This document shows positions 2,221 to 37,448 of a stretch of 64,000 bases of DNA, piece by piece. A program made the translations under genes and the position numbers. Source of the stretch: Loxodes magnus (taxonomy: Eukaryota; Ciliophora; Karyorelictea; Loxodida; Loxodidae); assembly GCA_946699065.1 (NCBI GenBank), contig CAMPDV010001228.1, positions 62,001 to 126,000 on the forward strand, given 5' to 3'. The notes under the pieces are model-generated. The model made no database searches and was not told the origin of the DNA. It saw only the letters and a program-made list of their open reading frames with translations. Position 1 is the first letter of the stretch. Every line of letters begins with the position of its first letter.

Positions 2221-2884
2221 ATCACCCTATCTATCTCTCTACAGGGCTCTTACTCTCCTTATTTGCTTTACTTACTTTTAGTAAGATACTTTAGTTATTT
2301 TAGTTACTCTAGCACCTTTAGTTAATATACTTGTATCAGCTGGTTCTGCTGGGGAATAAATACGTTATAAGAAAATGATAGGTAAAAATTAGGAATTGGA
2401 TTGTTTGATCTAGAAATGTATAAAATAATAATATGCATAAAAGTGATAGACTAAAATTAAAAGCTATGATTGAATAAACTAGAGACAGGTAGGATTGTAT
2501 ATTGAAAATAAGATATTAAACTAAGGATAATATTTGAATATTTGATTAGTATTAACAACTTAAATTATTGCTTTTTATATTTAAATAAAAAAATATTTAT
2601 ATACAATAATTTATTAAATAAAATATAGCTTTACAATTATAAATTTATTCTACATTTTCTTATTATTAATACTTTTAATGTATATAGTAAACATCCATAT
2701 ACTTGCTAAAATAGCTTAAATACAAATTTATATTCATTTTTATTATTTTACAACTGGGAAATTTAATTATCATCATTTTGCAAATATTAACCTTGCTTTT
2801 ATAAAAATGGCTGTATTTAATGAAAAGGAAATTTAAATAAATATTTTTAAAATAAATCCTTTATAATAATCATATTTCTTACTC
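2221..2884. other. AT-rich spacer
   Basis: Follows the LSU fragment. Low-complexity AT-rich sequence with no recognised motif, tRNA or repeat. Confidence 0.4.
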
Positions 2885-3397
2885 GTTCCTACCTTAATAT
2901 TTGTTCCTTTGTTGCTCTATCTATCTAGGCTTCATATTTTAAGGATTGATTGAACAAATTAGAATTTCTTTACTTCTTCTTATATATGTTTCCGAACGAT
3001 ATTGAATAAATGGAGATCATCATATTTCATTACTTATCTTTCAGTTTTTTTCTCTTTCCTTCAGTCTTCTCAATAGAGTCCTATCTTATTGCAAATTCTA
3101 CATTCTTAATCTTTTTATGGTTCAAATTTTTTTAGGTTTTGATTGTTGACTATTTAATTTCTATTAATATAGCATCGCTTGGAATAGTCTAACTTATTAT
3201 GCTTTTCTATTAGATTCTTTAGATTTTTTTTCTTAATTTTCTAAATGGATAATTTAATTTTCGTATAGGCAAAATTCTCGTTATTAAATTTGTAGAAAAT
3301 CTGTTTATCTCCTGTTTTCGCTTATCTATCCATTATGTGGATTTCATTATCGTCCTCGTGCTGTATGAGATCCTTTTTTATTGTGTTTACTTTTCAT
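2885..3397 (-). pseudogene. retroelement ORF1 (gag-like) remnant
   Basis: With the reassigned code the minus strand from the ATG at 3397 reads MKSKHNKKGSHTARGRQW and goes into a Gln-rich coiled-coil segment. After a frame change come a degenerate zinc knuckle near 3090-3104 (CRICNKIGLYWEDW, where the His and last Cys of CX2CX4HX4C are lost) and a basic tail. The order coiled coil, CCHC knuckle, basic tail is shared with the better copies at 14135-14830 and 44318-45144. The frame change and lost ligands suggest decay. The 5' flank (3490-3715) is strikingly G/T-rich on the plus strand. Confidence 0.5.
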
Positions 3398-3399
3398 GG

Positions 3400-22576: not shown

Positions 22577-25283
22577 TCAATTTTTCATCAATAAAGTGAA
22601 AAAAGCAAGAAAGTTAGCAAAGATCTTAAAATATAATGCTAATGTGTTTAGTAACTTTAAAATAACTAAAGTATCTAAATTAGAAATTAATTAATAATTA
22701 AGCATTAATTTAAGATAAATATTTAAAGCTGTTAAATGTTTTTCCATCTCTGTTTATATCAAAAATTACCCTCTATAATCAAAAACTTACTTATCATTAA
22801 ATTATTTACATCCTAAAATAGAAAAATAACTACCTAGTATAAATAATCTAATATTAATCATTACTATAACATTCTTTAATCAATTATATTAGGCATTACT
22901 TTCTTTTCAAATAAATCATTACCCCCTATAAATATTAATAATATTACATTCTATATCATTTTATTACTAACTTAGGTTAAATAATACAAGCTCATATAAG
23001 CAAATACTAGCTTCAATAAAATCAAAACCATCTTATAATTATTTCTTACAATCAAAAATTAAAAAGGTACCTGAAGTAGATTCTTACCGCCTGAGGTAAT
23101 TTAATACCCTCTTATAATAATAAAAAATACTAGCTATAATAGTTTTTAAATACAAACTGTCTATAAAAAATATTTTACATTCTATAAATATTTAAAATAT
23201 CTTACATTCTATAAATATTTAAAATATCTTACTCACTATAAATATTTAAAATATCTTACCATCTATAAATATTTAAAATATCTTACTCACTATAAATATT
23301 TAAAATATCTTACATTCTATAAATATTTAAAATATCTTACTCACTATAAATATTTAAAATATCTTACTCACTATAAATATTTAAAATATCTTACATTCTA
23401 TAAATATTTAAAATATCTTACTCACTATAAATATTTAAAATATCTTACTCACTATAAATATTTAAAATATCTTACATTCTATAAATATTTAAAATATCTT
23501 ACATTCTATAAATATTTAAAATATCTTACTCACTATAAATATTTAAAATATCTTACCATCTATAAATATTTAAAATATCTTACTCACTATAAATATTTAA
23601 AATATCTTACCATCTATAAATATTTAAAATATCTTACTCACTATAAATATTTAAAATATCTTACTCACTATAAATATTTAAAATATCTTACATTCTATAA
23701 ATATTTAAAATATCTTACAATCTATAAATATTTAAAATATCTTACTCACTATAAATATTTAAAATATCTTACCATCTATAAATATTTAAAATATCTTACA
23801 TTCTATAAATATTTAAAATATCTTACAATCTATAAATATTTAAAATATCTTACATTCTATAAATATTTAAAATATCTTACAATCTATAAATATTTAAAAT
23901 ATCTTACTCACTATAAATATTTAAAATATCTTACCATCTATAAATATTTAAAATATCTTACATTCTATAAATATTTAAAATATCTTACTCACTATAAATA
24001 TTTAAAATATCTTACATTCTATAAATATTTAAAATATTTACCATCTATAAATATTTAAAATATCTTACAATCTATAAATATTTAAAATATCTTACCCGCT
24101 ATAAATATTTAAAATATCTTACCCGCTATAAATATTTAAAATATCTTACCATCTATAAATATTTAAAATATCTTACTCCCTTTAAATATTTAAAATATCT
24201 TACAATCTATAAATAATTAAAATATCTTACATTCTATTTTAAATAGAAATACCATCTTATTTTAATTTTTACCTCCTTTATTTGTTTTTTTTTACTTGCT
24301 ATATATTAAATAATTTACTTTCTGGATTTGTTAAATTACCATCTTAACATAATTATTTTACAATCTTTTTTATTTTTTACATTCTATATTTAATTATTAC
24401 TCCCTTTCTTAGTATTCTTACAATCTTATTTATTTTATTACATTCTTAAATTTTATTTATTACTTTCTAGTTTTTAAAGTATTACTCACTTTTGTTAAAT
24501 ATATTACACGCTTTTTTAAAATTTACCTCCTATACATTTATTTCTAACTTTTTTCGAAGTCATTTTAGCCTTTTTTAAATTTTCTTACTTTCTCCTATTT
24601 TTGATTATTTAATACTTTCTAATTTTTATTATTATTTACATTCTATTATTATATTATTTACCATATTATTTTCTCATTATCTCGAAAACTAATTTTTTAT
24701 TAATTACTTTCTATCTTTATTTTTTACCTTCTAAATCTTATTTTCTCACCTCCTTAAATTTATATTAATTACAAGCCTTCAATTTTAATTCTAGCTAAAC
24801 CTCATCTCTATTCTCCATTTTATTTATTTTATGCTAACTATCTAATTTTTCTTATCCTCTATAAAGTTCATAAAAATCAGCGTCAATTCCTTCTAGTCTT
24901 TCTACTTTTTATTTCAGTTATTCAATTGTTTCTCCTTCCTCTACTGTTAAGTTTATCTCTTCTTCATTTTCACTTAAAATCTTGACTTTTATTAGTTTCG
25001 GTTTCTGCTAATAAGATAGTTCAATTTTAGTTTCTTCAAGATGAAGTTATTTATATTCTTATTTACTTTCACTTGATTAGCCCTTTTAGTTTATTAAACT
25101 TTTTGGATCATTAAATGAAACTTTTCTACAGTTTCTTTTTGGGCACTGATAAGAACCCTCTCTTAAGTATTCTTCAAGAATACAAATTTGGCATACTTGA
25201 TGTCCACAAGGAAGGGTTACTGGAATTCGTATTTAAGAGTCGAAATGAACTAAGCATGAGCTGCACCTGTTAGATTCAGCCAT
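22577..25283 (-). CDS. RING finger plus ubiquitin-like protein with about 75 single-codon exons
   Basis: Exon 1 (25283-24773, 511 nt) starts MAESNRCSSCLVHF. It has a RING finger (CSSC, then PCGHQVCQIC, then CPKRNC; last pair CX4C) at about residues 7-52 and a ubiquitin-like domain (IKVKILSENEEEINLTVEE, ELYRGQEKLDSQHKINKM) at about residues 95-165. A RING with a UBL suggests an E3 ubiquitin ligase or regulator. From 24772 on the gene is cut by about 80 GT-AG introns, mostly 14-24 nt, all phase 1. Most internal exons are exactly one codon; longer ones have 27, about 6, 21 and 21 nt. Joined, they read WEEIFEIMRKQYEQRESQ, then NDFEKRALKKYWKYYETR, and reach a 173-nt last exon (EMEKHLTALNIYLKLML) whose TGA at 22577-22579 is in frame: about 327 residues. 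The 3' end and one 37-nt intron near 22850 are less certain. Confidence 0.8.
22750..23174 (-). other. single-codon exon array, 3' diverged part
   Basis: The pattern continues beyond the repeat with unique introns of 17-26 nt: exons TTT, CTA, AGG, GCG, a 21-nt exon, ATG, CTA, CTT, TTA, AAT, GGG, AAA, AAT, probably GTA (after a 37-nt intron), GAT, TAA, AGG. In frame this gives QFLRAGTFLIFDYATFKWEK and leads into the last exon at 22749. The longer-than-usual intron may hide a different exon choice. Confidence 0.6.
23175..24233 (-). repeat. 27-bp tandem array: 24-nt intron plus one codon, about 40 units
   Basis: Forty units share a nearly invariant 24-nt block (minus strand: starts GTAAGATATT, ends ATATTTATAG) separated by a variable triplet, AAT, TGA, ATG, ATT, CGG or GGA. 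The block has the form of a complete minimal intron, and the triplets read on in phase 1 as codons (for example YWNAADYELKYVNQYQYVNQ). One block, next to the triplet at 24042-24044, lost a base and is 23 nt. That would break an unspliced frame but not a spliced one. The introns are more conserved than the codons between them, which points to recent amplification of intron-codon units. Confidence 0.85.
24234..24772 (-). other. single-codon exon array, 5' diverged part
   Basis: Introns begin GTAA, GTGA, GTAT or GTTA and end AAG, TAG or CAG, with lengths 16-24 nt that are mostly not multiples of three. Interiors differ from one another. Between AG and the next GT lie triplets GAG, AAG, AAA, a 27-nt exon (24688-24662), AAT, AAA, an exon of 3 or 6 nt, a 21-nt exon, then GAG, CGT, TGA, AAA, AAT, ATT, GGA, AAT, ATT, ATG, AAA, CAA, GAG, ATG. 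Removing the introns keeps the UBL frame through the two longer exons, which is the main evidence that splicing is real. Confidence 0.75.
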
Positions 25284-25969: not shown

Positions 25970-26800
25970 TTCTTTAAAATAAAAGCCATTATGCATCAAT
26001 CTGGAAACAACCATGCAAGGTAATGTCGAAACTTCACCTATTAGCATACAAAGCATCGTTCTTCTTCTTGCAATTCGAAGCTTGCCTCATTAGTTTGTCA
26101 ATTCTTATTATCAAGCGTGAAGCAGATCTTTTTGCTTTATTTTTGCTACCTCAGCTTTGTATTATACCTCAAAGCGTTATGGAATTGAAGCCTTCCTAAT
26201 TAAGAATAAATTTTGCTGAAGGAAAAAAATCGAATAATCTATTCTAAAGCCAATAATTTAGCTGAAGCTTCCGAAGGTAGAAATCTTTCCAAAAATATTT
26301 TGGAAGGATTTACTTCTTCCTACTACAGGAGGAGAAGGAAGAGATTGCTTTTGCTTTTTATTTACCCTACTACTATCTAGCACTTGATGAAAATGTTGTC
26401 ATGCTAGTCTTTATCCTTAATGCTATTATCGTTAACTTCCATGCTTCTAACCAAATTTTCTAATTCTCTCGACTTTAACTCTTCAATAATTTCAGATCCA
26501 CATTAACATATCTAAACTGATCTCATATTTTAAATGATATCAAACTTCAAAGACATTACAAAAATATATCTCAGAGGCAAAATTAGTAGACTTTAATGAC
26601 ACTGGTATTTCTATTAAGGATCTACTTAAAAGCTTTAGAAAAACAGAATATTACTAACTAATAGAATCTCTAACTCATCAAAAAGACATTAAGTAAAATA
26701 GTTTTAGACTTAAAGATTCAAATTAAGATACTTAGATAGCATTATGAAGGTCTAATTTGTAATTTTCTTATTTTAAATTTCTGGTAAAATGAAAATTTTA
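25970..26800 (-). CDS. coding-like stretch, unknown, one frame change
   Basis: The minus strand reads VRDSISQQYSVFLKLLSRSL, then NFASEIYFCNVFEVWYHLKY. After a one-base shift near 26500 it reads GSEIIEELKSRELENLVRSM with VNDNSIKDKDQHDNIFI, and later NEASFELQEEERCFVC. Charged residues and Trp written TGA look natural. No domain is recognised. It lies upstream of and co-oriented with the RING-UBL gene. The lack of a plausible GT-AG intron at the shift suggests a damaged gene or a sequence error. Confidence 0.4.
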
Positions 26801-37265: not shown

Positions 37266-37336
37266 TCCCCTTTAGTCTAGTGCTTAGGATATTCGGCTTT
37301 CACCCGAAAGATCGGGGTTCAAGCCCCGGATGCGAA
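37266..37336 (+). tRNA. tRNA-Glu(TTC)-like gene, possibly degenerate
   Basis: D arm TAGTCTAGTGCTTAGGATA, anticodon arm TTCGG-CTTTCAC-CCGAA with anticodon TTC, and T arm CGGGG-TTCAAG-CCCCG are recognisable. The T loop is one base short and the acceptor stem has two mismatches when TCCCCTT is paired with GATGCGA. It may be a weak or dead gene. It decodes GAA in the standard way and is not one of the UAR-decoding tRNA-Gln expected with this code; none of those was found in the window. It is paired tail to tail with tRNA-Lys, 39 bp away. Confidence 0.6.
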
Positions 37337-37375: not shown

Positions 37376-37448
37376 CGCCCAACGTGGGGCTCGAACCCAC
37401 GACCACCAGATTAAGAGTCTGACGCTCTACCGAATGAGCTAGCCGGGC
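37376..37448 (-). tRNA. tRNA-Lys(CTT)
   Basis: A 73-nt cloverleaf: acceptor GCCCGGC/GTTGGGC (one G-T pair), D arm GCTCATTCGGTAGAGC, anticodon arm CAGAC-TCTTAAT-CTG around CTT, T arm CGTGGGTTCGAGCCCCACG. It has consensus A and B boxes and a run of T on the minus strand just downstream. It looks intact. A shortened inverted copy of this gene and its tRNA-Glu neighbour lies at 15876-16028. Confidence 0.93.

Follow-up and report, generated by a model that had tools for sequence, protein, structure and literature searches.

The nearest described counterparts of the gene analysed here are the micro-exon genes (MEGs) of schistosomes which, in excerpts of the published account, carry most of their coding region in very small symmetrical exons, a symmetry that permits alternative splicing into proteins differing by a few residues (PMC4350168). 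Extracts of other studies report an isolated 3-bp micro-exon in Drosophila homothorax (PMC7392893) and a 1-nt exon in Arabidopsis APC11 (PMC4674806). For the ciliate Loxodes magnus, parts of the species study describe a macronuclear assembly of 706 Mbp, UGA as the sole stop codon and also able to mean tryptophan, and introns that by RNA-seq average 19.3 bp with a mode of 17, 93% of them being 25 bp or shorter and lengths divisible by three being depleted (PMC11441545). In the main text of that article, the word 'exon' occurs only in the reference list, and 'microexon' or 'micro-exon' nowhere.

In the window, by which we mean the whole 64-kb stretch of L. magnus DNA that was analysed, we found a member of a RING and ubiquitin-like (RING-UBL) family whose coding region after exon 1 very probably consists of dozens of consecutive one-codon exons, split by GT-AG spliceosomal introns of about 16-24 nt. 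GT and AG ends are the general rule of spliceosomal introns. The blocks share their tiny size and length range with the L. magnus introns described in the published extracts (PMC11441545). Like the MEGs, the gene has small and, as parsed, largely symmetrical exons, 1589 of 1687 exons over 19 copies being a multiple of three (3n) in length; unlike in the MEGs, the exons are 3 nt long and stand in long unbroken runs, the introns measure about 16-24 nt, the unit is largely a tandem minisatellite and the family has at least 151 matches in the genome. The 511-nt exon 1, moreover, holds a large share of the Loxodes coding length, and, MEGs being a schistosome group, the two are likened by layout. 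The tiny exons of homothorax and APC11 were reported singly, whereas the window copy runs through 58 three-nt exons without interruption (parse favouring 3n exons). Introners are multiplied near-identical introns, and coding minisatellites are cases of repeat-number variation in coding DNA; in the Loxodes gene, by contrast, intron and codon multiply together, with one residue per 27-bp repeat. Among the titles and abstract openings listed from the open-licence literature, no description of a run of 3-nt exons was found. Dozens-long runs of such exons would be a kind of micro-exon splicing for which we found no described precedent, the known exons of 3 nt or less being isolated ones, and for a coding minisatellite of one intron plus one codon no counterpart was found.

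From position 24772 to 22750 on the minus strand, the coding region after exon 1 is a series of GT...AG blocks with spacers of 3 nt. A chain search of this strand (block length 12-39 nt, spacer exactly 3 nt) returned a longest strict chain of 59 consecutive introns. A whole-gene parse of the window copy gave 80 introns and 74 three-nt exons, with 75 or 72 under other scorings, in agreement with an earlier note on this DNA that had counted about 75 single-codon exons on this strand. The introns measure 16-24 nt in 78 of 80 cases and 14 and 26 nt in the remaining two, matching the span of about 14-26 nt first proposed. The region has three parts (Table 1): a 5' chain with diverse introns, a 27-bp tandem array and a 3' chain, again with diverse introns. 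Blocks of 24 nt make up 39 of the 80 and lie nearly all inside the array, where lengths are mostly 3n; non-3n lengths occur mainly in the 5' and 3' sections, so that the claim that intron lengths are mostly not multiples of three holds for those sections and fails for the array. Exons longer than 3 nt measure 27, 21, 21, 9, 14 and 22 nt. Three of the four longer exons originally listed (27, 21 and 21 nt) recur in this set, and those of 9, 14 and 22 nt are additional to it. Intron 6 admits two readings, 24+3 or 21+6.

Table 1. Features of the window copy, with positions in the window and the analyses on which each assignment rests.
Feature	Position	Strand	Evidence
Exon 1, 511 nt, RING finger and predicted ubiquitin-like domain	24773..25283, ATG at 25283	minus	Pfam, alignment, AlphaFold, dN/dS
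5' chain, introns 16-24 nt, exons of 3 nt and two longer ones (27 and 21 nt); no tandem repeat	24253..24772	minus	Parse and copy alignment
27-nt exon within 5' chain; 48 nt (3n kept) in copies L031 and L034	24662..24688	minus	
21-nt exon within 5' chain	24549..24569	minus	
Tandem array of about 40 units of 27 bp, each with a near-identical 24-nt intron GTAAGATATTTTAAATATTTATAG and a single variable codon	23167..24237	minus	TRF, parse
3' chain, introns 17-26 nt, 3-nt exons plus longer exons	22750..23178	minus	
21-nt exon within 3' chain	23050-23070	minus	
9-nt exon within 3' chain	22865-22873	minus	
14-nt exon within 3' chain	22834-22847	minus	
22-nt exon within 3' chain	22791-22812	minus	
Last exon as read in the window copy, ending at TGA 22577; frame private among 17 copies compared	22577..22749	minus	

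Exon 1 encodes a RING finger, with a match to PF00097 above the Pfam cut-off, eight zinc ligands (C7, C10, C26, H28, C31, C34, C47 and C52) that are invariant in an alignment of eight copies, and a last ligand pair spaced CX4C. Its match to the ubiquitin-like family PF00240 (E 7e-5, 22.9 bits) lies below the cut-off of 25.4; of the two domains initially proposed, the RING is thus confirmed and the ubiquitin-like domain is a sub-threshold match. In an AlphaFold model, the ubiquitin-like part shows the expected order of elements at pLDDT 60-83, within a model that is poor overall (mean pLDDT 53; residues 1-93 below 50). The dN/dS ratio of exon 1 is 0.45 (190 pairs among 20 copies). TAA and TAG are read as glutamine, which we take to be NCBI table 27 and which agrees with the frame of exon 1. 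In the predicted product, a RING-UBL protein, the middle would be charged and quick to change and the tail short; that it acts as an E3 or serves in recognition is a guess. When the spliced protein was searched for relatives elsewhere, none of the 325 candidates reached E<=0.001.

A search of the genome with exon 1 gave at least 151 matches including the window's own (150 of 2765 candidates were scored). Each of the matches listed has an open frame of 178-193 residues, in some cases with one or two TGA, and some lie on contigs that duplicate each other (C514 and C1404, for example). All eight array clusters examined sit behind such a RING-UBL exon, and because the array 24-mer GTAAGATATTTTAAATATTTATAG has 26,346 exact occurrences in the 705,730,643 bases searched, the copy number of RING-UBL genes may reach into the hundreds. 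Homology between copies extends kilobases past the gene, with no common ends seen; the window copy parts from six others at 26506, upstream of which those six still resemble one another, and this marks a local breakpoint. A strict 16-nt intron pair pattern matched one place in 705 Mb (control 0), a locus lacking any chain of four or more, so that by this pattern, in its exact form only, single-codon chains do not look general in the genome. A two-unit pattern was absent from viral and prokaryote collections.

With chains defined as GTA...AG blocks of 15-26 nt and spacers of 3 nt, no chain of four or more started further than 1.8 kb from the gene's own chain on either strand of the 64-kb window. 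Of the sections that are not tandem repeats, the 5' one (545 nt) contains a chain of 14, or 15 with any GT allowed, and the 3' one (440 nt) a chain of 6, or 9 with any GT allowed; in 1000 dinucleotide shuffles of each section, the maximum was 3. By a parse with no exon-length preference, the one behind the count of 3n exons given above, 1453 of the 1687 exons in the 19 copies are exactly 3 nt long, compared with 71 of 1403 in control stretches of the window, where exon lengths were near-even modulo 3 (501, 476 and 426). A strict-motif spacer test, in which 570 of 574 spacers were exactly 3 nt, was set aside, since a tandem repeat alone would yield such spacing.

Comparison of copies bears on where introns end and exons begin. 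The 5' chain was aligned over 23 copies and has 411 intron columns and 105 exon columns in the window copy. Of its 41 distinct gap runs, 39 are confined to introns, and 37 of these 39 are not multiples of three. No gap run lies inside an exon, and the remaining two span whole units, in copies L041 and L042. Exon 1 in the same alignment has five gap runs, two of them non-3n and both from the frame-broken copy L031. The 3' section (17 copies) is less clean: 22 of its 30 gap runs are intronic, 20 of these being non-3n, six fall in exons (L034, L035 and the window copy account for the three that are non-3n) and two span an exon and an intron. Copy L041, with a unit deleted and several of its splice sites non-canonical, is possibly decaying.

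Over 34 chain introns, splice dinucleotides have a pi of 0.020 versus 0.082 in intron interiors (P=5e-9), and the Gs of GT and AG a pi of about 0.02 versus 0.24 for other Gs in intron interiors and 0.17 in short exons (P=6e-12); as the copies are related to one another, these and the following P values overstate independence. Canonical GT...AG ends were found in 655 of 677 copy-by-intron cells of the chains, cells gapped at the site being set aside. Where the intron is 3n, non-canonical sites occur in 13 of 153 cells, some of which probably go back to a shared ancestor; where it is non-3n, they occur in 9 of 524 (Fisher P=1.9e-4). Copies L034 and L031 each have one intron that looks like exon sequence, and the 48-nt exon that results is again 3n. 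When the parse favoured 3n exons, 7 of 19 copies had only such exons and 12 had at least one non-3n exon. Some of these non-3n exons are the 14-nt member of a 14/22-nt pair, while others reflect a splice site that has been lost or a genuine change of frame, and some of the copies concerned may be decayed.

The same copies gave no sign of codon-level constraint in the short exons or the tail by synonymous and nonsynonymous tests that do find the true frame of exon 1, a null result that weakens a coding role for these exons. For the 3' chain, phase 2 was the best of three frames (P=0.04 on 21 changes, one of several tests) and phase 1 gave nothing. A genome search for a processed copy of the gene, run with no positive control, came back empty. 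Codon-level selection would likewise go unseen if the gene ended soon after exon 1, its unspliced frame closing at a TGA near 24486 and the remainder being untranslated or a decayed repeat. The exon 1 frame is indeed open as far as 24486, and frame changes in the 3' exons of some copies would also suit an early end. Such an end is nonetheless very unlikely, given that GT/AG sites in both chains are about fourfold more conserved than interior bases and that exon lengths in the 5' chain are constant while introns vary. Conserved GT/AG boundaries also speak against the blocks being IESs, DNA eliminated in macronuclear development, rather than introns. Ciliates do excise short DNA segments from genes, but this assembly matches in size the macronuclear one, in which excised DNA would be absent. 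As far as the extracts of the species study go, no canonical IESs were found there (PMC11441545), and we regard elimination of the blocks as DNA as barely credible.

For the favoured reading, in which the blocks are introns between one-codon exons, the phase follows from exon 1, whose length of 511 nt from the ATG, as the earlier note had it, leaves phase 1 after it. In array sequence alone (1213 triplets from 31 copies, some near-identical), phase 1 contains TGA in 6 of 1148 codons (0.5%), as against 158 of 1213 in phase 0 and 151 of 1148 in phase 2 (13%). With chain triplets included, the phase-1 figure is 9 of 1254 versus 6.7% and 9.7% in the other phases. Shuffling the order of triplets in this mixed set leads one to expect 19.1 TGA (sd 3.1) where 9 are seen; within arrays alone, avoidance by order was not significant (6 seen versus 4.4 expected). 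Phase 1 is favoured by TGA content. In amino acid composition, phase 1 resembles exon 1 for E and K but has more Y, W and D and less S and L. Among the array triplets of the 31 copies, 42 of the 64 possible triplets are present, and few bases are C: 31, 38 and 33 out of 1213 at the first, second and third position. Placement of gaps, GT/AG conservation, concentration of broken sites in 3n introns and scarcity of TGA together argue for one-codon, phase-1 exons with tiny introns, as had been proposed. The proposal that every intron is phase 1 applies to the chain and has one exception at its 3' side, where the 14/22-nt exon pair, on this interpretation of the 3' parse, puts one intron in phase 0.

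In 17 copies, the 3' end was read as exons of 9, 14, 22 and 3 nt. The pattern fixes the exons of 9, 14 and 3 nt and leaves the 22-nt exon free, and the free exon measures 22 nt in 16 of 17 copies and 16 nt in L035. Copies keeping the common 3' frame exist among the 17: in nine of them a phase-1 TGA, earlier than the one that ends the window copy, stands at one common codon, and L039 has another before that codon. The last exon of the window copy is out of the common frame and open in its own frame to TGA 22577; the 173-nt last exon described earlier is therefore present as an open frame but private to the window copy among the 17. Equal length of the spliced tail was dropped as evidence, as the pattern itself had fixed the 9-, 14- and 3-nt exons and the last exon had been cut at 78 nt; copies with other lengths had, furthermore, been left out.

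The array, as the bulk of the units, and its hypervariability, like the matches elsewhere in the genome, are features absent from the earlier note. Between copies whose 2.5-kb flanks differ by 0.1-0.5% (8 pairs), the codon strings are 29-77% different, and at a flank difference of 0.5-1% (16 pairs) they differ by 9-76%; four pairs with no flank substitutions have identical codon strings. In six close pairs, some sharing a copy, the triplets differ at 8-19 bases per 93-105, whereas the introns show 0-5 changes per 744-840; often all bases of a triplet are replaced together, for example TGA by AAT. Such hypervariability fits an exchange or conversion of units, which identical introns hide and triplets reveal. 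Across array units, intron positions deviate in 1-13% and triplet positions in about 40-65% of cases. Unit exchange leaves unexplained why the pool of units varies far more in the codon than in the intron; selection for varied codons is one possible cause. Within the array, GT positions deviate in 4-6% and AG positions in 2-3%, in no clear contrast with the interior (1-13%).

Because strict-motif array blocks are 24 nt long in 563 of 584 cases (19 copies), the 27-nt unit stays in frame with TAR as glutamine, and a retained 24-nt intron would keep the frame. The array could then be translated unspliced as a nine-residue protein repeat, with splicing confined to the 5' and 3' chains, and units without a donor in L033 and L026, which read as 30-nt exons, lend this some support. 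The other 21 of the 584 blocks are 22, 23 or 25 nt long, however, the window copy's array itself holds one 23-nt block, and the array block has the form GTAAG...ATAG with a length in the range of the published extracts (PMC11441545), all of which makes an unspliced array highly improbable. In L033 and L026 the donor-less units are present many times, as if a unit whose intron had turned into exon were being multiplied. The minisatellite-like hypervariability of the array would equally be expected if it were non-coding and removed or skipped in one piece, as a single long intron reaching from exon 1 to the last exon. Yet conservation extends beyond the outermost pair of sites to the inner GT/AG sites of the chains, and 93% of introns in the published extracts are at most 25 bp long (PMC11441545), so we hold one long intron to be extremely unlikely.

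The structure of the sequence, its conservation among copies and the hypervariability of the array are established, and the frame logic comes directly from the sequence: with phase-1 boundaries throughout the chain, a unit can be added, dropped or (putatively) skipped and the frame stays as it was. RNA splicing, its order, the protein product and its function we infer from these features. Each tiny intron would be recognised as its own unit (intron definition), and introns would be removed serially, probably 5' to 3' during transcription, each splicing step lengthening the upstream exon by one codon. In mid-gene, a unit of one 24-nt intron and one codon would have turned into a coding minisatellite of 27 bp, each repeat contributing one residue, with a turnover between copies that appears to be very fast.

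If one-codon exons are indeed spliced by the dozen, they represent a limit case for the spliceosome, as exons of 3 nt are too short for exon definition or for two complexes at once. Identical splice sites every 27 nt would give an in-frame outcome whichever pair is used, and pure intron definition, splicing order and fidelity become directly testable. The arrangement would also offer a route to a hypervariable peptide, codon by codon, with the frame kept. Tentatively, and as a possibility we hold less likely than its negation, the gene could act as a frame-proof generator of diversity: a coding minisatellite with a unit of one intron and one codon, in which recombination of arrays would alter the central peptide of a large E3-ligase-like family one codon after another, possibly helped by skipping from one identical splice site to the next with the frame kept, perhaps varying what the protein recognises.

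Elsewhere in the window, 19 other open frames were compared with Pfam; the only matches were to PF02402 and PF19745, both below their cut-offs, and none was to a transposase. A partial eukaryotic large-subunit rRNA lies on the plus strand at 1350-2232 (model positions 2391-3399 of 3401, E 9e-126) and is the only rRNA match of the 64 kb. About 40 bp separate two tRNA genes that face opposite ways, at 37266-37336 (plus) and 37376-37448 (minus).
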